29,355 nucleotides of DNA from a virus: positions 1 to 29,355 of the IMG/VR virus record IMGVR_UViG_3300041405_000021, one strand, 5' to 3'. Shown in pieces: positions 595 to 20,814 of the stretch. Positions within the stretch are counted from its first letter, which is position 1. Each line of letters starts with the position of its first letter. The translations under genes were made by a program, and so were the position numbers. The notes beneath the pieces are model-generated. The model saw nothing but the letters and a program-made list of their open reading frames with translations, had not been told where the DNA came from and did not search any database.

Positions 595-2568
595 ATGTAC
601 CAATCCGAAACTATGGATGCTGTGCGCGACGCAGCTGAAACATTGACTCGGGAAGGTAAAGTACTGACCACTGGGAACCCTGAGTTCCCATTGGCTGTAT
701 TTGCCGATACCTATAAAGTCGATGACGAGCCTACTAACACGGCTCTCCCGGAAGAAGAAGTTGTAGCTATTGAAGAACACTTCGATGCTATTAACCAAGA
801 CTCTACTCCGGCTGAAGACGATACCCGTGAGTCGATTGTTGCTAACCTGCACACCGCTGTTGCGAAGGTTCAGTTTAACACCACTAACATCATCATCCCT
901 GCAATCAAAGCAATGCATACACAGTACGCTAGTATGCAAGCTAGTTCGAGCGAACCTGAATACGCTGTACGTGCTTGGCGCTATCTGGCACCACACAACT
1001 CAGCTACTTTGGTTAACCACATCAATACCCGTTATACCCAAGTTCAACCTAAAGACTCTTATCGTTCGTTCCATCTGGAAACCCAGTCGGCTGATGCGAT
1101 CGTTGAGATGATGGCCGTGAACAACCCTCACCTAGAACAGGAAGAGGTTACCGAATGGGCATTGCAGGTCGGTACCGAACGACTGGAAGCAGTATGGACC
1201 AGTATCTTTGGTTCTCAAGGTGTTGTAGTACCAGCCGGTCTTCCGTATCTGACTGCACAAGGTGCACCATTTAACGTAGACGACATTCTGGTTGCTTACT
1301 TCCTCTGCGGTCACTATATCGACAATCCAGTTGCAAACTCTGGCGTGGATATTGATGAATGGGAACACACGCTGAAGATCCTGCATGAGATGTTTGGGTT
1401 CTACCTGGCTCGTGCTTACACTCGTCGTGCTGATGCTCGTGAACAAGGTCAAATGATCCTTACTAACGATGCTACCAATCCAATCGATACCCGTCGTGCA
1501 GTAGTTATCTGTAACGGTGACGTATTCGATCCCTGGGTTCTGGCTGGTGGTGACATTCAAGCTGTATTGGGTGCTGCTGTTGAGAACTCTGGCGTAACTG
1601 ATGTTCGTCATCTGGATGCTAACTCGGCTAAGTTCATTGCTCGCTGGCACGCAGTGTACCCGATGATCAAACAAGCTGCGATCGACTACTCGGATCGTCA
1701 ACGCGTAAACAACGTTATCAATACTTTCCGTGAAGTCGGTAAGTCTGAACTGTTGAAAGAACGCTACAGCCCTGAGACCGAAGCTAAGCTGATTGAAGCA
1801 CTGCGTTATATCCGTCGTGACGATTACGATAACCCTTACAAGGTGTTCTCGAGTCTGATCTGCCGTGTGTACTTCCCAGAAGCTACCTATCTGGAATACC
1901 TCGACGCTATCGATCAATACGGTCAAGACTTCCCTAAGGCTACCGTGCGTGAACTGGCTACCCAAGCGATGATCTCGCTGGTTGCTATCTTCCAAGCTAA
2001 GCAGATCGTTACTGAACTGTTCATGCCTGAGATCAATCCAGATGGTCCAGAAGAACCTGGTCAATTCCAAGACACAGGTCTGTTGGCTATGGCTGACTCC
2101 GATGGTGAAGGCGAAGAAGCTGAAACCACCGACATGACTGGTGATGATAGTGTACCTGATGGTACCGATGGCGTGGACGGTGACGTAGGTCTATCGGATA
2201 CTGATCTGGGTGAAGGTACTGATGACACTTCTGTAGACGATATCGTTTCTGAAGACGCTGGTGTTGATGATACTACTGACACTCCCGGTGAAACCAGCAC
2301 TGACGAAGATGCGACTGATGACGAATTCACTGAGGAAGAGGAAGAAGATCCATATGCTGATCTGGAAACTCCTACCGAAGGTGAGGAAGTAGAGACCGAG
2401 GAAACTGAGACTGAAGAGTCTGAGTCTACCGATGGTGACTTTACCGCCGATGATTCTGCTGAAGCTACTGAAGAAGTAGAACAAACTGAAGACGCCGCTG
2501 AATCCGAAACTTCGACCGAAGAGGAATCCGAGGAAGAAGAGGAAGAGGATGAAACCCCTTTGACCTAA
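595..2568 (+). CDS. 657-aa probable virion/assembly protein with acidic C-terminal tail
   Basis: The start is well supported by AAGGAG seven bases upstream. Residues 1-490 look like a globular, mostly helical domain that I do not recognise. Residues ~495-657 are a low-complexity tail dominated by Glu, Asp, Thr and Ser with almost no hydrophobic residues, so probably disordered and strongly negative. The position between a polymerase subunit and the prohead protease suggests a head-related or virion protein; this is inference. A slippery heptamer CCCTTTG at 2556-2562, two codons before the stop, could make part of the product continue in the -1 frame for a further 116 residues (about 772 aa in total). 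The acidic tail resembles scaffold-like or DNA-mimic segments, but no function is assigned. Confidence 0.9.
   Translation: MYQSETMDAVRDAAETLTREGKVLTTGNPEFPLAVFADTYKVDDEPTNTALPEEEVVAIEEHFDAINQDSTPAEDDTRESIVANLHTAVAKVQFNTTNIIIPAIKAMHTQYASMQASSSEPEYAVRAWRYLAPHNSATLVNHINTRYTQVQPKDSYRSFHLETQSADAIVEMMAVNNPHLEQEEVTEWALQVGTERLEAVWTSIFGSQGVVVPAGLPYLTAQGAPFNVDDILVAYFLCGHYIDNPVANSGVDIDEWEHTLKILHEMFGFYLARAYTRRADAREQGQMILTNDATNPIDTRRAVVICNGDVFDPWVLAGGDIQAVLGAAVENSGVTDVRHLDANSAKFIARWHAVYPMIKQAAIDYSDRQRVNNVINTFREVGKSELLKERYSPETEAKLIEALRYIRRDDYDNPYKVFSSLICRVYFPEATYLEYLDAIDQYGQDFPKATVRELATQAMISLVAIFQAKQIVTELFMPEINPDGPEEPGQFQDTGLLAMADSDGEGEEAETTDMTGDDSVPDGTDGVDGDVGLSDTDLGEGTDDTSVDDIVSEDAGVDDTTDTPGETSTDEDATDDEFTEEEEEDPYADLETPTEGEEVETEETETEESESTDGDFTADDSAEATEEVEQTEDAAESETSTEEESEEEEEEDETPLT
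2556..2562 (+). promoter_or_regulatory. candidate -1 programmed ribosomal frameshift site CCCTTTG
   Basis: In the frame of the 657-aa gene the codons read ACC CCT TTG ACC TAA, so CCCTTTG is an X XXY YYZ heptamer in the correct phase (C CCT TTG), six bases before the stop. A slip by -1 enters a frame that opens only at 2553, just after a TGA at 2550-2552, and stays open to 2912. The -1 frame has a protein-like sequence with many charged helix-forming residues well before any start codon. I see no clear structure at the usual 5-9 base distance. A stem with a one-base bulge lies further downstream, at about 2615-2641. Confidence 0.5.
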
Positions 2569-2624
2569 GCCAGTCCTCTAACGAAGCATGGGATCAAAAA
2601 GAAATACGGAGACGCCTCGCCCGT

Positions 2625-2912
2625 TTGGAAGAACGGCGGGGTGAATCTATTGAAGAAACCATGAAGAAGGCTGGACCGGTAGGTACCGGATATTTTACGA
2701 TCGAACAAGCACGAGCTGCCGCTCAGGGTGAATGTGATGCCTATGGTATCGATCCTACACTGAGTAATGCTGAACGTTGCACGCGTCTAATTGATATTCA
2801 ACAGGGTTCACCTTTGATGCATGAAGAACGTCAACGGAAAGTTGCTTATGCGGAACGTCTAGCTGCTGATAAGTTCCACACCGATCTTAAAGACAAACTA
2901 GGTCAAAACTAA
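2625..2912 (+). CDS. hypothetical 95-aa protein or frameshift extension of the 657-aa protein
   Basis: The frame is open from 2553 to 2912. The first usual start codon is TTG at 2625, with GGAG 13 bases upstream (too far) and the TTG lying in the loop of a possible hairpin. The first ATG is at 2661 and has no convincing ribosome binding site. Coding-like sequence (an Arg/Glu-rich helix including EIRRRLARLEERRGE) runs across the TTG from upstream, which fits better with entry by -1 frameshift from the preceding gene than with independent initiation. The rest is a soluble, charged, mainly helical protein that I do not recognise. Its stop is followed by AAAGGG, the ribosome binding site of the next gene. 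Confidence 0.7.
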   Translation: MEERRGESIEETMKKAGPVGTGYFTIEQARAAAQGECDAYGIDPTLSNAERCTRLIDIQQGSPLMHEERQRKVAYAERLAADKFHTDLKDKLGQN

Positions 2913-2925
2913 AGGGTAACATCAC

Positions 2926-3645
2926 ATGGCAATTCCTAATCTAATCCGAGACGCAGACTACGTAATGAGTAGACTCGTTGAGAATGAAGATGGGAGTGTC
3001 GTCACCACAGTACCTTGCTCTGTACAGATTCCAGAAAGCTTTACTGCTAAGAACCTTGCTGTCATTGGCAGTGAGGTTTTTATTTTTGGTTTCTTCCCGA
3101 TCATCATGGGTGATCGGTATGCTGTGAACAAGACTATCGCTATGATGCGTATTTGTCCAAGCTCTACGCAAAAGGTCGTGGTTAACGAAACTCCGTACAT
3201 CGAGTTCCAATTCGAACCGGGTGACAAGCTCATTTATACAACCGCTCTGGTTGTAACTGATACACTGACGTATTACATGTACGACCAATTCGTTGCTAAG
3301 GGGAATATCCCTTGGTATATGAACTACTACGACATGGCTAATATGTTTGACACGGCTTTGGAACACGCAGGGGTAGACTTGGGTGGTCGTTCGATTATCG
3401 AACTGATTATCTCAACTATCGCTCGAGATCCTGATGATATGACTAGACTGTATCGGCATATCCTCGCAAGGCCGGAAGACCTCGTTAACAAACCTCCTGT
3501 TACCGTACCATTCCGTTCTGTTATTTGGAACACCTCCGATACAACCTCCAAACTCAATGGTGCTTACTACGATCACGGTATCAGCTCTGCTCTGGTTAAC
3601 CAGTCGGAGTCGGTAGAAATGATTGAAGAACTGCTCCGCACATAA
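2926..3645 (+). CDS. hypothetical 239-aa protein, probable virion or head-assembly protein
   Basis: The ATG at 2926 has AAAGGG at a suitable distance and begins a compact mixed alpha/beta protein without signal peptide or membrane segment. I do not recognise a family. The gene lies between the acidic-tailed 657-aa protein with its extension and the prohead protease, with 11-13 base gaps, so it is most likely transcribed with them and may take part in head assembly. That role is inferred only from position. Confidence 0.85.
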   Translation: MAIPNLIRDADYVMSRLVENEDGSVVTTVPCSVQIPESFTAKNLAVIGSEVFIFGFFPIIMGDRYAVNKTIAMMRICPSSTQKVVVNETPYIEFQFEPGDKLIYTTALVVTDTLTYYMYDQFVAKGNIPWYMNYYDMANMFDTALEHAGVDLGGRSIIELIISTIARDPDDMTRLYRHILARPEDLVNKPPVTVPFRSVIWNTSDTTSKLNGAYYDHGISSALVNQSESVEMIEELLRT

Positions 3646-3656
3646 GGAAGTTGTTT

Positions 3657-4532
3657 ATGAACATGGGTATGATTCGGGGACGTACGATCCCTAACCCCAT
3701 GGGCCAAGTTCCTACATCCCAGTCGGCAGTAACTGTCGGCTGTGCGATGTTGGCTGGTACCAATAAGCGTGGCATCTTGCCCGCAGACAAAGAAGGCTAT
3801 TATACCCTCGTGGTTGGTAGCTATGGCACAGAGAACTCCGCCGGTATGTTCTACGACGAAGCTTCCGGTGTAGCGATGTTTGAACCATCTAGCTCTTTGA
3901 TGCGTCGCCTTAAGAAAGGCGTACTGTTCATGGAGTTCAAGCACCCAGAACCTTACCAAGATCTTTTGATCCAAGGTCAGGTTGTACGCAAGCCTATGTC
4001 AGAAGCTGAATACCTCATGCGTATTCGGTCTATCGATGACAATCGGGTATGTGCACACATTCGTAACCTGACTATCATGCCGGGTGTGAATGAACAAGGT
4101 AAGCAGGTTAAGATGGTTGTAGCGGAAGTTAAGCCTTACGGTCCTTTTGCACAAGTCTTCAAAGACTCGCTGGATAACCCAAACATTAACACTTACTGTT
4201 CGGTACGTTCTATTACTCAGGACGATCAATACCGTGGCATTAAGTACACTCGTGAAATCGCTACTTGGGACTTCGTGGGTGAAGGTGGTATCTTTACCGC
4301 TAACAAATATACGTCTCCAGCATTGGAAGGTTTCAGCGAGGCAGAACGTCTCATTCATGTACCTGAGCGTACACTGACTCCAGATGTGTTGTGGCAGATC
4401 CAAGACGAAGCGAAAGCTCGTAGCCGTATCGGTTTGGAATCCGCTGAACACCAAGATGTAAGTGGTCTCATCGATGTACTCGGTTGGGAACGCAGTAAAG
4501 GTATTCGTCGTCCTGCATATTTGCGTGGATAA
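3657..4532 (+). CDS. prohead maturation protease, S80 / T4 gp21-like
   Basis: The 291-aa protein shows the layout of phage prohead serine proteases: an FKHPEP segment (His96) matching the family's G-E-L-x-HP motif, the catalytic-histidine region CAHIRN (His134), a glycine/proline stretch, YCSVRS with the likely nucleophile Ser182, and TWDFV with the likely acid Asp205. This His-Ser-Asp order is that of the T4 gp21/S80 family, which cleaves scaffold and internal head proteins during capsid maturation. The ATG at 3657 is chosen over the in-frame TTG at 3651 because AAGGA ends eight bases before it. The gene closes the first plus-strand block and is followed by a strong hairpin at 4556-4575. Possible substrates in the window are the acidic-leader internal proteins at 17771-20814. 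Confidence 0.75.
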   Translation: MNMGMIRGRTIPNPMGQVPTSQSAVTVGCAMLAGTNKRGILPADKEGYYTLVVGSYGTENSAGMFYDEASGVAMFEPSSSLMRRLKKGVLFMEFKHPEPYQDLLIQGQVVRKPMSEAEYLMRIRSIDDNRVCAHIRNLTIMPGVNEQGKQVKMVVAEVKPYGPFAQVFKDSLDNPNINTYCSVRSITQDDQYRGIKYTREIATWDFVGEGGIFTANKYTSPALEGFSEAERLIHVPERTLTPDVLWQIQDEAKARSRIGLESAEHQDVSGLIDVLGWERSKGIRRPAYLRG

Positions 4533-8897: not shown

Positions 8898-9947
8898 TTA
8901 TGCTTTAATACGGAACACGGTATTAGCCCATGGTAACCGTACGGTGACTTTCTCACCCATACCCGACTTACCTGCAAATGACAACATTGTACGTTGCTCG
9001 CCATCCCCACTAAACGACATGGTACGATGGTACAACTGATAGTTCATGGCTGCCATCCAGTTTACGAGTGACTGCGCCAATTGCAAGCGCTCCGCAACTT
9101 GTTCTTCGGTTGGTTTATTACGTGCACCTTTCTTCGGTTCACGGTACTCCAAGATAGCTGTGTGATGAGGATCGAAGTTCAGTTTATCTAACTGAGTATA
9201 CGATACCCGACCATAATCCAACGACCAGTAAACACCGTTACCGTAGTCTTCACCGGGGAATGAATTACCACCTATATGTAACCCTAGGTTTGGATTTGCC
9301 ATCCAGTCCATGTCAACGTTCTGTTGGAAGTCTGGAGTGTGAATTAGACCGACCGTATACAACGCTCGAACAATAGAGTTACGACCATGAGTCCAAACTT
9401 TAATGAGATTCTCACGGAAGTCCGGCATTGCTCGAAGCTGGCTTTGAAATTCCAGACGATACATTACCGATGGTTGATTCCCCATTCTAGCGCGCTGCAA
9501 CAAACGACACACATCGATGTGACGGAGTAGTTCACGCAACCATGCTGGAACCTGATTCTTTTCCACGAACACGTATAGGTCAGTTACAGCTTCTTCATTA
9601 CCGTAGTGGGAACCGATCATTGTTTTCACGACGCCCGGCACTACAGCTTTCTTTACCTTAAGGAAGGAAGCCAGTTGACCTTGTGTTACGAATGTACCGT
9701 CGATGGACTTACCGCGAATCCATTTGTAAGCTCGTTCAGCCAGAGCAACTTGAGTCGTTACAGATTCACGCAGGTCCACGGATACAGGGGAGATCATTTG
9801 TTCAATCAGGGTATTAGTCATTTCAGTTACCTGTTCAGTTTTAGTTATTTCATTAATACGGGTCTGCAATCTAGCATGACCCGCTTCAGCAGCGGCAGTA
9901 AGGACGTTGTCACTTAGGTGAGTGGAACGTGGTCTACGCTGGCGCAT
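8898..9947 (-). CDS. hypothetical 349-aa protein, possibly structural
   Basis: The start ATG overlaps the stop of the upstream gene by one base (TAATG), so it is coupled to it. The N-terminus is basic, followed by ~100 helical residues. The remainder is a globular Tyr/Trp-rich domain including the stretch GEDYGNGVYWSLDYGRVSY. No family is recognised. It is the fourth gene of an operon with 11279-10524, 10527-10318 and 10321-9947, all joined by one- or four-base overlaps, so these products probably work together. Confidence 0.85.
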   Translation of the reverse strand: MRQRRPRSTHLSDNVLTAAAEAGHARLQTRINEITKTEQVTEMTNTLIEQMISPVSVDLRESVTTQVALAERAYKWIRGKSIDGTFVTQGQLASFLKVKKAVVPGVVKTMIGSHYGNEEAVTDLYVFVEKNQVPAWLRELLRHIDVCRLLQRARMGNQPSVMYRLEFQSQLRAMPDFRENLIKVWTHGRNSIVRALYTVGLIHTPDFQQNVDMDWMANPNLGLHIGGNSFPGEDYGNGVYWSLDYGRVSYTQLDKLNFDPHHTAILEYREPKKGARNKPTEEQVAERLQLAQSLVNWMAAMNYQLYHRTMSFSGDGEQRTMLSFAGKSGMGEKVTVRLPWANTVFRIKA

Positions 9948-13463: not shown

Positions 13464-14075
13464 TTACTTGTATCGCCACCCCTTAAATAAAGCGGTTTGG
13501 CTACGGATACGGTCAGCAGCGGTTTGCAGTCCGATACCATAAGTTTTAGCAACTGTGGTAAGGCTTTCATATTCAATGTCATCCACTAATACAGGTTTAC
13601 GTTTCTTAGCCGCGCGATTTTCTATCCATTCAGCTGATTGCTTCATACCAGTGCGAGTTTCAGACATTTTCTTCCGAGTGGTGTCAGTATGACCTATACC
13701 CATTTTACTGATCGACATCCTAGCTCGAGCTTCCAGTGTTTTTGGGATGCCGGTTTTCTTCGCCGATAAAGCCTGACGCATTTCCTCGGTCCATATGACG
13801 TCTACAACCCCTGTCCGATTTAATAATGTTCCAGACTCTCTCAGTAATTGGATAAGACTAGCTTCAGTCTGCCTAGCTGTTTCAATATCCGGCATTTCGT
13901 GAACCGTTACCTTGAACTCGGGCGACTGGTCGTATGCTTTCTGTAAGTCAGTATTTACATGCTTACCAAGTTTCAATGTATAGAAATGGCTTCGCTTGCG
14001 GGTTACGATATCGTTGGTTGAGCCTATGTATATCTTACCAGACTCAACATGCTCTAGTGTGTATACATAGGCCAT
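13464..14075 (-). CDS. GIY-YIG homing endonuclease (free-standing)
   Basis: The 203-aa protein starts with the GIY-YIG domain: YVYTL, then KIYIGSTND (Tyr16, Gly18), likely catalytic Arg in TRKRSH (residues 26-28), Glu71 in TEASLIQLL and Asn86. Residues ~104-155 hold repeated NUMOD3-type DNA-binding motifs (AKKTGIPKTLEARARMSISK; SETRTGMKQSAEW). The C-terminal ~45 residues match a NUMOD1-like helix-turn-helix (EYESLTTVAKTYGIG). Such enzymes cut cognate phage genomes and spread their own gene. It lies 10 bases after the SbcC-like gene with its ribosome binding site AAAGG at that stop, so it was probably inserted next to, and rides on the transcript of, a conserved replication gene. Confidence 0.9.
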   Translation of the reverse strand: MAYVYTLEHVESGKIYIGSTNDIVTRKRSHFYTLKLGKHVNTDLQKAYDQSPEFKVTVHEMPDIETARQTEASLIQLLRESGTLLNRTGVVDVIWTEEMRQALSAKKTGIPKTLEARARMSISKMGIGHTDTTRKKMSETRTGMKQSAEWIENRAAKKRKPVLVDDIEYESLTTVAKTYGIGLQTAADRIRSQTALFKGWRYK

Positions 14076-14085
14076 GCTATTACCT

Positions 14086-16593
14086 TTACTTGATGAGACA
14101 ATTCTTGTTATAGAGTTCTGGCACGGTTACGTTAGTAGGGTCCAGCACCATGAATTCAGCTTGGTTAAATGCCCCGTGAGTCGAAACGTAGTGACTGATG
14201 TAGAAGATCTGTGAGTGCTGACCATTCTCGATCAGACGAGCGATGAATGGGATCAGGTTATCACGGTGTTGTTCGTCAAAGGTACGACCGAACTCGTCCA
14301 AGAACAATGGGAAATCTTCCAGATGCAGGAACTTACGCATCGCCTGACAGAAACTGAAGTTAACCATCTCAACTTGAGAGTCGCTACCACGTGAGATATC
14401 TGGAGCCATTACAGCGCCATCAGAAATGCACAGTGGGAAGTTGTAATCCAGTTCGTCTTTCTCAACCTTAGATGGGAGGACTTCCATCTTGTAGGTCCAG
14501 ATCTCGGAGATGTAAGCATTGACCAGAGTCGTTACACCTTGCATGAAACCCATCAGATATTTACCCAACAGACCACCGTTCGGAGACAACGCTTTAATCA
14601 ACAGGTTCAGATCACCTTGAACTTCACGAGCATTCTCAACTTCACCTTCCAGCACACGTAGAGAAAACTCACGTTGTTCCAGAGTTGTCAGGTTACGGGT
14701 ACCTTCAGCGAGCTTTACTTGAATCTCACGGATCTCATTCTCATAAGCCTTATCTAGAAGCCACTCTGTGTGCTGCATGGCACGTTTACGCCAATTTTGG
14801 TATCCTTGTATAACCGCATTGATATCGTTGTTCAGACGACGGATGTCGACCTCTCCACGGTTGATCTGTTGCAGGTACTCCGACATCGTTTGTTGTTCAG
14901 AATACTTAGCTTGGATCTCGTGTTCCAATAGAGAGCAACGGTTGCGGTTATAAGCAACGGCATCACGATCGATTTCATTCAGAGTGGCGAGGCGTTTAAC
15001 CAGACGTTCTGTTTCGGCTTGAGTTTGATGCAGCAAGATCAATTGCTTCATCTTAGTATGCCACTGAGTGATATCCACTTTGATGGCTGATGGAGTACGA
15101 AACATCAATTGGTTATCTGACACGTAATCCCATACTGGACTAAAATCAGAATACTCGCGAGTCAACTGCACAAAGCCATGGACATGTCCACGATACTCTT
15201 TAGCTGCATCCAAATACTCTTCATCACTGAGGATAGCCAGATCGGCTTCTTCCATGTGAGTACGTACTTGGTTTATATAAGCTTCGAGTTTCTCACCTTC
15301 AGATTCATCGATACCCGGTTTGAACTCATGTTCACATTTAGGGCAAGCTACAGTGTCACACGCCTTTAGGCGAGCCAAGCGTTGCGAGGCGGTTTGTTCA
15401 GCGCGATCCAACTCGCGACGACGACCCAGCAAAGCAGACATGTTCTCGCGAACCGATTCAATCTTGACATTGGAGAAATACCCCTCGGTGTTATCAGGGA
15501 AAGCGTTAGTGATTTCAAACCAACGCTGGAACATGTTATGCAGCCGTTGATCTGGATTGTTGGACAGATCCAAGTTAACCAGCGGGAACTTAATTGGGTT
15601 AGCATCAAGTTCTTTAAACAACGTATCTACTTTCTTAGTAGCAGTAGCTACATCCGCTTCAAGGTTATTGAGTTGGTCAGGAGATACTTCCATCTCTGTG
15701 ATGTTAGCACCTCGTAACGATTCTAACTCCTCGGCCATCCGATTGATTACAGCTTGAACTGCCGCACATTGTTCTTGAACGATTCTTTTCTCGTCCAGAA
15801 ACTCTGTCTCGTTCTTAGCTTTAATACGGGTAGGTAGAGTTGGATAGCTGTACAAGATATCCTTAGCTCGTTCAACTAATTTAGCCAGCTGATCGGCTGC
15901 TTCGGCTTCGTCACGGAATCCCGGTTGCTGATTAGGTTGACGAGCCATGAACAAACCATTAAGGCGTTCAGACATCTCATGGTTATCACGCTTCAACAAA
16001 CTGATTTCAGCATCGGTCGGAATGTCATGGTTCTCATTGACCAGACGTTTCGTTATCGTATCGACTGTACCCTTCTGTGACCGAGACTCAGTCTTAAGAA
16101 TGTTGAATACATTGAAAGCATGTGTCAAATCCACTACCGACATTTTAGTCAGGATTTCACGACGCTTAGCCGTAGACATCTCGGTAAACTTCAGTCGACC
16201 TGTACAGATGTCATGGAACTCCCGAGTCAAGCCAAATTCTTGAAGGCACAGATCTTCTTGGATCTTGAATGTACCACCTGAGTTAAGTTCTTCGTCATCA
16301 CGGATAAAGGAATGTCTACCTGTACCATGACCGTATTCAGACTTCAGGACATAAAAGCTACCGTTGTGGTAGCAGTGAAATTCTTTCTCTCCGCCGGGAG
16401 CAAAGTTATCGGCACCACGTGCTGCCTTTGGTGGTGTTGGTAGTGGAGACAGTTCTTCCATAATAGAAGACTTACCTGAACCGTTAGAGCCGATCATGAT
16501 CATCAGCTGTTTAGTAGGGGTCCACTCAAACTCTTGAATATTGGATCGCATCAAACGACGAAAACGCTTGAGACGAAGGTATTTGATTTGCAT
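14086..16593 (-). CDS. SbcC/Rad50-like ATPase (T4 gp46-like recombination nuclease subunit)
   Basis: The 835-aa protein has the SMC/Rad50 layout: Walker A GSNGSGKS at residues 35-42; long coiled coils; a zinc-hook CPKC near residue 420; a second coiled coil; the ABC signature-like region RGSDSQVEMVNFSFCQAM; Walker B FPLFLDEFG; and a late His switch (ISHYVSTHG). In T4 the gp46/gp47 complex processes DNA ends for recombination-dependent replication, matching the UvsX homologue at 27246. The nuclease partner (gp47/SbcD) is not in the window. The ATG at 16593 has AAAGGG upstream. Confidence 0.92.
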   Translation of the reverse strand: MQIKYLRLKRFRRLMRSNIQEFEWTPTKQLMIMIGSNGSGKSSIMEELSPLPTPPKAARGADNFAPGGEKEFHCYHNGSFYVLKSEYGHGTGRHSFIRDDEELNSGGTFKIQEDLCLQEFGLTREFHDICTGRLKFTEMSTAKRREILTKMSVVDLTHAFNVFNILKTESRSQKGTVDTITKRLVNENHDIPTDAEISLLKRDNHEMSERLNGLFMARQPNQQPGFRDEAEAADQLAKLVERAKDILYSYPTLPTRIKAKNETEFLDEKRIVQEQCAAVQAVINRMAEELESLRGANITEMEVSPDQLNNLEADVATATKKVDTLFKELDANPIKFPLVNLDLSNNPDQRLHNMFQRWFEITNAFPDNTEGYFSNVKIESVRENMSALLGRRRELDRAEQTASQRLARLKACDTVACPKCEHEFKPGIDESEGEKLEAYINQVRTHMEEADLAILSDEEYLDAAKEYRGHVHGFVQLTREYSDFSPVWDYVSDNQLMFRTPSAIKVDITQWHTKMKQLILLHQTQAETERLVKRLATLNEIDRDAVAYNRNRCSLLEHEIQAKYSEQQTMSEYLQQINRGEVDIRRLNNDINAVIQGYQNWRKRAMQHTEWLLDKAYENEIREIQVKLAEGTRNLTTLEQREFSLRVLEGEVENAREVQGDLNLLIKALSPNGGLLGKYLMGFMQGVTTLVNAYISEIWTYKMEVLPSKVEKDELDYNFPLCISDGAVMAPDISRGSDSQVEMVNFSFCQAMRKFLHLEDFPLFLDEFGRTFDEQHRDNLIPFIARLIENGQHSQIFYISHYVSTHGAFNQAEFMVLDPTNVTVPELYNKNCLIK

Positions 16594-17770: not shown

Positions 17771-18967
17771 TTAAACACCGTTGTTTTCGTAATGATCAAT
17801 ACAGTGGTTAATGAAGGTAAGCCAAACGTTCAGAGTGATCGCCAGCCAATGAGTAAAGTTATCCATTGGTTCAGCAAGCTTCTTGGACATCTCACCGATG
17901 ATCTGGAGAACCAGATTCGAAGATGGAACAGTCTCACCACTATCGGTTCGTTCCATGATCTGACGAATAGAATCATCGACCACGGTTTTAACAGTTTCAA
18001 AGTCACGTCGTCCAGACTCAGCCTTTTCAGCCAAGGTTAGGATGCTGGAGATCTGGTCAGTCAACTCGATCATTTCCTTTACGGAAGGTACATCGATTTC
18101 ACGTTCAGATTTATCCGCAACGTTCATGGTCAGTTCGGTAAAGCTCATGAGGAAGCTAGAACCTACCACGGTAGCTGGGTCACTCTTATTGGCACGCAGC
18201 GATTCGAAAGCTCCTTCTGGAGCCATGTATACAAATGCAGCGTTACCAGCAACCACATCACTACGACGGTGGAACTTTGGATTAACGTCGTTCATCTCGC
18301 CCTTGCGCATTTCCGTAGAACCCGGTGGGGCACGGAAACTGGCAGCGAACGATTCAATGAACTGCTCGATTACTTCGCCTGCTACTTCTTTACGATCTTT
18401 GCCTTCAGCGCCATCGAGGATATTCAGGAACTTACGACTGCAATCACGGGAGATCTTGGTTACGCATTTCGGATAAATGTTTAGTGTGTAGTTAGTCAAG
18501 TCTTTAATGTTAACCAGACTTGGAAGATCCACACCTACGAATTTACCATCTACCGACAAGCGTTGTACACCAGCTACAGACATAGTCGGCTGTAGCGATG
18601 CTTTAGAACCGAGCTTACCCAGTCGACGCGATACACCTTCTTGGCTTCGACGTACCCGACGGATACTACCAGTGAATTTAATGTACATCGCGTTAAGGAA
18701 TTGCCAGATCTGTTTGATGATTTGCCATGCGGCTTTAGCACCAGCAGCCAACGCTTCCTTAATTGCTCGCAGTGTGATGGCACCACCCTCTTTGATATCG
18801 AACTCAGGGTCGATGTTCTCAAGGGCAACGCCCATCACGAATGCGATGTCGCCACTCACTCGTTCTTTACCGTTGAGCAATTGCTCGTAGCGTTCAAGAG
18901 AACTAGTGAGTCGTACCACCTTATCCCAATTCTCGAGGACTGGTTTCAGTTCAGATGTTGGGTTCAT
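17771..18967 (-). CDS. 398-aa probable internal head protein, paralogue of the 610-aa neighbour
   Basis: The protein is largely helical and aligns along its whole length with residues ~200-610 of the upstream product: LERYEQLL / VERYHGLM; ALENIDPEF / ALEDIDANL; a helix with repeated Ala/Ile/Phe; LSVDGKFVG / LMIGDEFVG; NAAFVYM / NMALYAG; and a C-terminal helix ending in WLTFIN / YIGFLE. phiKZ-like phages carry families of paralogous inner-body and head proteins cleaved by the prohead protease; this pair may belong there, which is an inference. It lacks the long acidic leader of its neighbour. AGGAAG precedes the ATG, 14 bases after the upstream stop. Confidence 0.75.
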   Translation of the reverse strand: MNPTSELKPVLENWDKVVRLTSSLERYEQLLNGKERVSGDIAFVMGVALENIDPEFDIKEGGAITLRAIKEALAAGAKAAWQIIKQIWQFLNAMYIKFTGSIRRVRRSQEGVSRRLGKLGSKASLQPTMSVAGVQRLSVDGKFVGVDLPSLVNIKDLTNYTLNIYPKCVTKISRDCSRKFLNILDGAEGKDRKEVAGEVIEQFIESFAASFRAPPGSTEMRKGEMNDVNPKFHRRSDVVAGNAAFVYMAPEGAFESLRANKSDPATVVGSSFLMSFTELTMNVADKSEREIDVPSVKEMIELTDQISSILTLAEKAESGRRDFETVKTVVDDSIRQIMERTDSGETVPSSNLVLQIIGEMSKKLAEPMDNFTHWLAITLNVWLTFINHCIDHYENNGV

Positions 18968-18981
18968 GTGGTACTTCCTAA

Positions 18982-20814
18982 TTATGCTTCGATGGTACCG
19001 TCATTGCCTTCAGCTTTGATCGATGCTTCGAGGAAGCCGATGTAGCCTTTAACCAGATTGATCAGATAACCAATGAAGCGGTGCTGAGACTCAGAGGTAG
19101 TCTTGGCCAGAGTCAATGCGATCAGACCAGCTTGTTGACCGGCAGCATTACCGGTGAACAGATCCATGAAACCGGAGTGTTGTGCTTCGCCGACGAATTT
19201 CTTCAGTGCAGCATTACCCGATTTAACGTCAACGATGAATTGACACATTTTCTCAAGTTCACGGATTACCGCAACAGCCTCACCAGCGGTTGGGGTAGTT
19301 GCTTTAACATCGCCAGCAGATGGATCACCACCTGGGATCAGACTGAAGCTCAGGTTAACACCATCGGCAGCGTCTTCCATGGAGCCAGCGGCACCAGACT
19401 TCTTACTAGTCTTGATACCAGCATACAGAGCCATGTTACCCGGCATCGGACCAGACCAATGCAGACGGTCTACATCAAGGAAACCCGAAGGTACTTTGTC
19501 TTTGTCACCCGGTTGAAGGCTATCGAACGAACGGAATGCACGATCCAAGTTGTTCTCGATACCACCGATGATTGTGCTCATGGCTTCTTCGCCAGCACCA
19601 CCAAAGATGTCAGCGAACATACCACGCTTGCCTTTCCACTCTTCCAGAATCTTACCAAGGGCGTTAGGCCAGTTCATCAGGAGTTCTTGAGCGATACTGT
19701 GGACTTTAGCAACAGCGTTCTTAGAGTCGCCTACGAATTCGTCACCGATCATCAAACGACCGGCACCTTTCATGGTGAACTCTTTGTCACCTTCCAGGAT
19801 GTTTACACGCTTACGCAATTCGCCAAGGTGATTCTTGATCTTACCAGCGTCTTGAGAGAAGCTCGCAACCAGATCGGATACCATGTTAACGAATCGCATG
19901 AAGATCTTAACACCAGCTTCGAACAGCTTCTTCAGCTTGGAGCCCAGACCCTTACCTACTTCACCTGGATCAGCACCATCATCGATCGTACCTTCTTTAG
20001 CTTTAGAACCTGAGCCGACAGCAACTGCACTAGCTTCCAGAGATACACGGGCTTTAGGATTGAAGGATTCCAAAGCAGCACGTTCGGTGAAGAACAGGTT
20101 TGCGTCGATATCTTCCAGAGCCCACGAGATCGATTGACGGAGTTCATCCGACATATAGCGACCTTCTTTATGCATACGTTGCATCAGACCGTGGTAACGT
20201 TCTACGGTAGCGGTAGCTTTGCTCAGGGCTTCAGCTTTAGCAGCTACGGAGTCACACTCAGCCAGCTTCGACTCAGATACGTCGGTCATGCCGGTAACTT
20301 GGAGTTCTTCGCCATCGAGGTCCATAACCATGTCATCAGCTTCGCCAACGCCTTCAGCGCCAGACGAGTCAATCGAACTCAGATCACTGGCTTCAGTACC
20401 TTCGCCGCCTTCTTCACCTTCAGCGTGTTCTTCAACCGAAGTACGTACGTCACTGGCGCTCAGGCCATCAGTAGCAGATACCTTGTTTGGTAGGGTGTCG
20501 ATATCACGACCACCGTTCTGATCACGGTTCAGGTTTTCGTTAACGTCGCTTACATCCATATTGGTAGTAGCGTTCTTAACGTCTACGGTTTGAGCTGTAC
20601 CATCACCACCGCCATTCTCAGGACCGGGTTCGCTGGTCTTGGTATTGGACACTTCGGCATTAGGCAACTCATCGGTCACCAGTGGCTTAGGTTCGTTGAT
20701 GGCGTTCTTTGGGATGTCTTTCGTGGCATCTACCGCAACGTTATCTACGTTCGGATGACTGATGCTTTCTTGGGAGATGGATTTAACCATCTTAAAAATA
20801 TCTACACGGGCCAT
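18982..20814 (-). CDS. 610-aa probable internal head protein with acidic leader
   Basis: Residues 1-~195 are low-complexity and acidic (Glu, Asp, Gly, Ser, Thr), typical of a leader removed during head maturation. Residues ~200-610 form the helical domain shared with the 398-aa protein downstream. Possible protease sites of the phiKZ type (small residue-x-Glu) include SQE near residue 14 and SLE near residue 255. These were seen but not tested. The ATG at 20814 has GGAGTAAGAT upstream. The gene probably forms an operon with the 398-aa paralogue. The role in packaging or ejection is inferred from family resemblance only. Confidence 0.8.
   Translation of the reverse strand: MARVDIFKMVKSISQESISHPNVDNVAVDATKDIPKNAINEPKPLVTDELPNAEVSNTKTSEPGPENGGGDGTAQTVDVKNATTNMDVSDVNENLNRDQNGGRDIDTLPNKVSATDGLSASDVRTSVEEHAEGEEGGEGTEASDLSSIDSSGAEGVGEADDMVMDLDGEELQVTGMTDVSESKLAECDSVAAKAEALSKATATVERYHGLMQRMHKEGRYMSDELRQSISWALEDIDANLFFTERAALESFNPKARVSLEASAVAVGSGSKAKEGTIDDGADPGEVGKGLGSKLKKLFEAGVKIFMRFVNMVSDLVASFSQDAGKIKNHLGELRKRVNILEGDKEFTMKGAGRLMIGDEFVGDSKNAVAKVHSIAQELLMNWPNALGKILEEWKGKRGMFADIFGGAGEEAMSTIIGGIENNLDRAFRSFDSLQPGDKDKVPSGFLDVDRLHWSGPMPGNMALYAGIKTSKKSGAAGSMEDAADGVNLSFSLIPGGDPSAGDVKATTPTAGEAVAVIRELEKMCQFIVDVKSGNAALKKFVGEAQHSGFMDLFTGNAAGQQAGLIALTLAKTTSESQHRFIGYLINLVKGYIGFLEASIKAEGNDGTIEA

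Follow-up and report, generated by a model that had tools for sequence, protein, structure and literature searches.

A probable -1 frameshift joining an inner-head protein of giant phiKZ-like Pseudomonas phages to exchangeable, possibly releasable extensions

A programmed -1 frameshift very probably joins a 657-aa inner-head protein, the carrier, to a conserved extension in the 29,355-nucleotide stretch of virus DNA analysed here, which is called the window throughout. The sequence motifs also make it reasonably likely that the extension is a payload that is cleaved off and delivered. The whole reading, in which slippage adds a payload to a head protein that is ejected and the payload is then freed by the head protease, is given a probability of roughly 0.6. 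The sequences themselves provide an in-phase slip site, its conservation, a -1 frame that is coding although it lacks a start, interchangeable payload domains, and a conserved SxE motif.

From these features we infer slippage in vivo, cleavage at the SxE of the window, packaging, injection, and the payload's action, as follows. The majority of ribosomes would produce the 657-aa inner-head protein and terminate at 2566. A fraction would slip back one base on C CCU UUG, with tRNA-Pro and tRNA-Leu re-pairing with CCC UUU, and would add 116 residues to yield a 772-aa fusion. The gp177-like part would take the fusion into the prohead, and a gp175-like protease would cut after S-N-E, eight residues past the junction, leaving a payload of about 108 aa free. 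The freed payload could then be ejected into the host alongside other inner-head proteins, and the number of copies packed would be set by the slip frequency.

The carrier gene and its surroundings

Sequence comparison identified the window as a fragment of a phiKZ-family giant Pseudomonas phage. The carrier and its neighbours are as follows:

595-2568, plus strand: carrier gene, 657 aa, homologue of the inner-head (ejection) protein 201phi2-1 gp271 / phiKZ gp177 / SPN3US gp243
766-774, plus strand: predicted head-protease site A58-I59-E60, end of the N-terminal propeptide, from alignment with AVE-61 and SVE-60
2095-2553, plus strand: acidic Glu/Asp-rich C-terminal tail of the carrier, upstream of the slip site (sequence, alignment)
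2926-3645, plus strand: neighbouring gp176-like virion structural protein (phrog_2926, 2.6e-93)
3651-4532, plus strand: gp175-like head maturation protease, the proposed releasing enzyme (phrog_3014, 1.6e-84)

The order from left to right is the end of the virion RNA polymerase beta gene, a 65-aa ORF, the 657-aa gene, the extension, and the gp176-like and gp175-like genes. The carrier was assigned to the gp177/gp271/gp243 family by similarity in its conserved part and by its place between RNAP beta and gp176/protease. It matches phrog_3841 in PHROGs (9.7e-134), shares 68% identity with 201phi2-1 gp271 over the first 514 residues, and shares 41% identity with phiKZ gp177 (PHIKZ177). The head protease cuts gp271 after AVE-61 and gp177 after SVE-60 (PMC5694885). 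A58-I59-E60 of the carrier aligns with these published sites and is predicted to be cleaved as well; E60 is invariant in a 10-sequence alignment. This site at about residue 60 is present in gp177 and gp271 but not in SPN3US gp243. The phiKZ protein gp177 is injected (PMC10449902), and gp243 is essential in SPN3US, where the abundant ejection proteins gp53 and gp54 depend on it (PMC5694885).

Two other regions of the window were noted, both on the minus strand. At 17771-20814, two genes for internal head proteins adjoin each other; both belong to family phrog_8282 and they encode 610 and 398 aa, the shorter one lacking the first ~160 profile positions. A 349-aa ORF at 8898-9947 has no PHROGs match, and its neighbours are otherwise assignable.

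The slip site and the frame beyond it

The features at and after the end of the carrier gene are listed here:

2556-2562, plus strand: slippery heptamer C CCT TTG, in phase (X XXY YYZ), conserved in seven phages
2562-2912, plus strand: -1 frame extension, 116 aa plus stop (DLSQSSNEAWDQ...DKLGQN), pN/pS 0.39 over codons 3-35
2566-2568, plus strand: zero-frame stop TAA, one sense codon past the heptamer, position conserved
2570-2591, plus strand: weak stem beginning 7 nt past the heptamer, which may act as a stimulator; 86% of cells paired, pairing interrupted in some phages
2577-2585, plus strand: S-N-E codons, predicted head-protease site freeing a 108-aa payload (2586-2909), conserved SxE
2613-2643, plus strand: strong hairpin of 13 bp located 50 nt past the heptamer, also a candidate stimulator; 98% of cells paired
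2661-2663, plus strand: ATG taken by relatives' annotations as the start of a small separate gene; its SD is weak, and L013 and L017 lack this ATG

The carrier ends with the codons GAT GAA ACC CCT TTG ACC TAA (2548-2568). In the -1 frame there is a TGA at 2550-2552, after which the frame is open over 2553-2909 and stops at 2910-2912, and a -1 slip would give a product of 656 + 116 = 772 aa. The earliest ATG, GTG or TTG in this frame is the TTG at 2625, followed by the ATG at 2661. The initial annotation had described CCCTTTG in the exact phase of the 657-aa gene near its stop, a -1 frame open from 2553 up to 2912 including the stop, and a TTG at 2625 as the earliest possible start of the downstream ORF; an ORF check agreed with all of these, coordinates included. 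It had put the chance of such a heptamer at 1-2%, close to our value of about 1% for four positions, which comes from a rate near the stop of about 0.3% per codon position, counted over every ORF of 100 aa or more from four related phages. In about 7,800 codons, thirteen gp177-like genes hold six in-phase heptamers off the junction; the carrier genes of the window, 201phi2-1, Viktualia and L017 each hold exactly one, at the junction. A slip-site search near ORF ends in four phages gave no general excess of heptamers beside stops and, thus, a lone heptamer is weak evidence. It is conservation across phages, not the heptamer alone, that lifts the candidate slip site of the window above chance.

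C CCT TTA/G was found at the identical place, one codon before TAA, in seven phages: the window, 201phi2-1, Viktualia, PhiPA3, Phabio, and the IMG/VR contigs behind loci L013 and L017. Every phage bearing this extension family has C CCT TTR (7/7), and CCCCTTT is invariant in all of them next to a fast-changing acidic tail. Three positions of NCC CCT TTR are synonymously free in the zero frame and never vary among the seven, while in gp177-like genes CCT accounts for 43% of Pro codons and TTA/TTG for 22% of Leu codons. Carrier homologues that lack the terminal slip site (PA7, D6, RVTF4, PS119XW, L019 and L024-L026) have no -1 extension there. PA7 is a member of the phiKZ genus, and neither its locus nor a heptamer scan of phiKZ revealed a slip site or -1 extension at the gp177 gene in that genus. 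The comparison of homologues that the initial annotation proposed showed both the heptamer and the overlap to be conserved in the seven phages, and a search of the homologues for any that lack the heptamer and keep a separate extension gene with a normal start returned none. An extension-only scan of viral contigs recovered known phages only, and a scan of genome contigs turned up no relative. One pattern match, contig L029, was rejected as chance since it has no long zero frame. That a sequencing or assembly error, or the decay of a gene, has split one frame in two is a negligible prospect; the same split, slip site and spacing occur in independently sequenced isolates and metagenome contigs.

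The seven CCCTTT-type phages are kin and do not represent seven independent events. Stronger independent support comes from two other groups. In Psa21 (Tepukevirus) and contigs L021-L023, the same gene ends with G GGA AAG one codon before TAA. The -1 extension of this group is conserved and different from the CCCTTT-type extension, the slip-to-stop spacing is identical, and the Psa21 extension domain recurs as the last domain of the L013 extension. The second group consists of six inner-head-like genes that end with A AAG directly before the stop and have a ParB-like extension in the -1 frame: L036 1143-2881 (D6), L042 (RVTF4), L037 1959-2836 (Psa21), L043, L044 and L045. The four that were tested (D6, Psa21, RVTF4 and L043) belong to the internal head protein family. 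Their group's -1 frame reads KV(T/S/A)xSxE(A/T/V)Y and then the ParB-like domain. Full heptamers are present in three of the six (GGGAAAG, CCCAAAG and AAAAAAG), and the other three fit a slip site by the A AAG part only.

Several related arrangements were seen in passing. The A AAG-stop extensions of D6 and Psa21 are annotated as separate genes. On contig G007 (L047), a ParB-like domain with SLE and then TF ahead of it is fused in frame to a virion structural protein, possibly a version of the same design that needs no frameshift. In 201phi2-1 (L053, 9461-11967) and contig G002 (L073, ~13511-16017), in both on the minus strand, the gene for DNA polymerase (phrog_3011) has an in-phase CCCAAAG 0-1 codons ahead of its stop, and its -1 frame runs into a conserved 124-aa family, phrog_9995. 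An ordinary ATG start seems to be used in PhiPA3, and Psa21 has no heptamer; the CCCAAAG at the end of the polymerase gene may be due to chance.

Downstream of the slip site of the CCCTTT-type phages, the consensus of the -1 frame is approximately PFxLSQxSxEAWxPxExxRRLxRLxxRR. The PhiPA3 extension has a 3-codon deletion compared to the others, and the frame is kept. Upstream of the annotated ATG, pN/pS was 0.39 in the -1 frame compared to 2.1 and 1.4 in the other frames. A value as low for this start-less stretch arose in only 1 of 2000 column shuffles, and in a six-phage set the -1 frame gave 0.36, with a value as low in 0 of 2000 shuffles. The earlier suggestion that coding-like sequence extends upstream of TTG 2625 is borne out by -1 frame conservation at the protein level up to the heptamer. 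The extensions of L013 and L017 are open -1 frames of 370 and 409 aa whose first ATG, GTG or TTG comes at codons 83 and 62, respectively.

Another explanation for the extension is that there are two separate genes. Translation of the downstream ORF would then begin at ATG 2661 or TTG 2625, perhaps with ribosomes re-initiating beyond the TAA, and the heptamer would be coincidental. Several annotations do start a gene at the homologue of ATG 2661. This ATG and the TTG both occur in the same five phages; neither is present in L013 or L017, where the frame is nevertheless open throughout. The SD duplex energy of the TTG in the window is fair (-6.6), but among the candidate internal starts SDs are weak and not conserved, and no conserved start with a ribosome-binding site was found for the extension. 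An independent start codon was rejected since none is conserved among the relatives. Against two separate genes also stand the conservation at the protein level that reaches the heptamer, upstream of any start, and the invariance of the heptamer at synonymously free positions. We consider this explanation highly improbable. Given the conservation of the start-less -1 stretch and the long start-less frames of L013 and L017, a separate start appears very unlikely as the main route to the extension.

In the 201phi2-1 record, gp271 is flagged as detected by mass spectrometry, and gp270, which is the extension, is not; a rare or small gp270 product could escape mass spectrometry. Viktualia (L002 3129-3452) and PhiPA3 (L003 2925-3611) have a further ORF that begins at an ATGA overlapping the extension's end. 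In Viktualia this ORF is a homologue of the domain that closes the L013 extension, and in L013 that domain shares a single frame with the remainder of the extension.

Two RNA structures downstream, the near stem and the hairpin, are possible stimulators of slippage. In the hairpin at 2613-2643, two pairs are changed on both sides such that pairing is compensated, with a modest pairing control from five sequences, and its conservation may come in part from the coding sequence. Fifty nucleotides downstream is an unusual distance for a stimulator, and it is the strongest hairpin that lies there, the near stem being imperfect. An SD-like element upstream of the slip site is found in five of the seven phages and is not kept in L013 and L017. 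For this reason, SD-like stimulation by the Glu codons is not claimed.

A protease motif at the junctions and the domains that follow

Proteins of phiKZ heads are cleaved after S/A-X-E, and proteins of 201phi2-1 are cleaved after Glu (PMC9026906, PMC10449902). Eight residues past the slip, all seven CCCTTT-type phages have SxE followed by A-W (T-F in PhiPA3), and SxE-(A/T/V)-Y is found at the junction of 6/6 A AAG-stop genes. S-x-E and then (A/T/V)-(W/Y/F) follows all 13 junctions of these two types. In the four GGGAAAG gp177-type genes the motif is directly before the slip site, as STE then AY, STE then AH, or SLE then AH. Among ORF ends with an open -1 frame in four phages, few have such a motif nearby (5/625), and four of the five are known junctions. 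In 201phi2-1 the motif is SSE followed by AWGPEELK, in Phabio STE followed by AWGPDELK, and in PhiPA3 STE followed by TFDIEDK. The match to the motif suggests that the fusion may be cleaved at the junction SxE. The predicted junction peptide of an uncleaved fusion contains ...DETPLELSQPSSE.

If the frameshift is real, the fusion could also stay intact, giving a longer minor version of the head protein like T7 gp10B, with no cleavage at SxE. That would follow the known pattern of phage head frameshifts (PMC5009743). We think it distinctly unlikely because every junction has a head-protease motif, either before or after the slip site, and head proteins in this family are cut at S/A-X-E (PMC9026906).

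The extensions look like interchangeable cargo domains: helical, ParB/sulfiredoxin-fold and GNAT-like. The predicted structure of the window's extension is helical (pLDDT 74); a structure search matched it to no known fold with significance, and Pfam and PHROGs returned nothing significant. For the extension domain of L013 and L017 (model pLDDT 68), the best structure matches were sulfiredoxin and ParB (best E 2.9e-5, probability 1.00 in the fold search), and this domain bears a D-G-x-H-R signature. L017 has an additional GNAT-like domain (E 3e-4, below the Pfam cut-off), a free-standing relative of which in Burkholderia phage FLC9 passes the cut-off. Relatives of the ParB-like extension are free-standing genes in Erwinia phages.

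A third possibility is that the frameshift is real and that the extension is an assembly or scaffolding tag, for core interaction or capsid targeting, which is cut off and lost on maturation. The homologue SPN3US gp243 is required for the incorporation of inner-body proteins, and cleaved N-terminal fragments of other head proteins are reportedly cleared from the head (PMC5694885). The extension of the window, a small helical domain without resemblance to an enzyme, would suit such a role. Cargo is a better fit for the relatives, which hold different enzyme-like domains at this place (ParB/Srx fold and GNAT-like) that also occur free-standing, and several relatives have no extension at the carrier gene. 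On this evidence a tag seems unlikely, though it deserves weight; cleavable cargo describes the extension better than a structural tail does.

Comparison with known systems

The initial annotation regarded frameshifting as new for a head-region protein with an acidic tail in a jumbo phage. A frameshift joining the two frames is strongly supported, but the phenomenon itself has precedents in head genes: PMC5009743 lists phage head-gene frameshifts in T3/T7 gene 10, A2, A118/A500 and PSA. T3/T7 gene 10A/10B, Lactobacillus A2 and Listeria A118/A500 (-1) and PSA (+1) resemble the present case in having a C-terminally extended second form. They differ in that the extension, often Ig-like, is part of the coat protein, whereas here it follows an internal ejected protein and comes with a protease motif. 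To our knowledge, none of these coat-protein extensions is released.

The lambda G/GT tail-assembly chaperone likewise slips at an X XXY YYZ site close to its 3' end. Its heptamer is G GGA AAG, as in the Psa21 group. G/GT differs in being a non-virion chaperone encoded between the tail tube and tape measure, while the carrier is an inner-head protein adjoining the head protease. The chaperone placement between tail tube and tape-measure genes was not found here, where the neighbours are RNAP beta, gp176 and the head protease.

The closest relatives of the carrier are the giant-phage ejection proteins gp177, gp271 and gp243, with which it is homologous, and the N-terminal protease site of gp177 and gp271 is conserved in it. 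Neither the gp271 extension nor this frameshift is described in the literature found, in a search that did not extend to the main 201phi2-1 papers (2008, 2010). The literature searched, including the consulted part of PMC5009743, held no description of a phage cargo route that is loaded by frameshifting and released by a protease.

Polyvalent proteins, for example DdrB of phage P1, are packaged in the head, typically contain ParB-like and GNAT domains, and are proposed to act on host entry (PMC5512222). They are single-frame multidomain proteins, for which PMC5512222 does not mention frameshifting, in contrast to the domains described here, which would hang by a frameshift and a protease site. 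Of the extensions, L013 has a polyvalent-type domain by fold and L017 by a GNAT match below the cut-off, and the payload of the window matches none.

The wider proposal is a general Gag-Pol-like cargo system in giant phiKZ-like Pseudomonas phages. Several inner-head proteins that end with slip sites would carry exchangeable effectors (ParB-like, GNAT-like and helical) into the prohead, and these would be released at SxE, injected at set copy ratios, and act early. We see this generalization as evenly poised between right and wrong. If true, it would mean that PhiPA3, 201phi2-1 and Phabio have new injected proteins, now annotated as separate small genes or, in PhiPA3, unannotated. It would explain how payloads are swapped without loss of the essential carrier, and the carrier with its slip site and SxE would be a natural tag for loading proteins into phage heads. 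A direct prediction for virion mass-spectrometry data that have already been collected also follows from it.

Phages would then share a retroviral trick, in which a frameshift determines how much cargo is packaged along with the genome and a protease releases that cargo. This Gag-Pol logic has been set out for retroviruses and totiviruses (PMC5009743). Slippage there occurs near the end of the gene for a packaged structural protein and a minor fusion carries the second domain into the particle, as in the arrangement proposed here. A viral protease frees the domain in those systems, as is proposed for the phage. The differences are that the virus here is a dsDNA bacteriophage, that an inner-head protein which is ejected, and not the shell, serves as carrier, and that the payload consists of variable small domains and no polymerase; the resemblance does not extend to homology.
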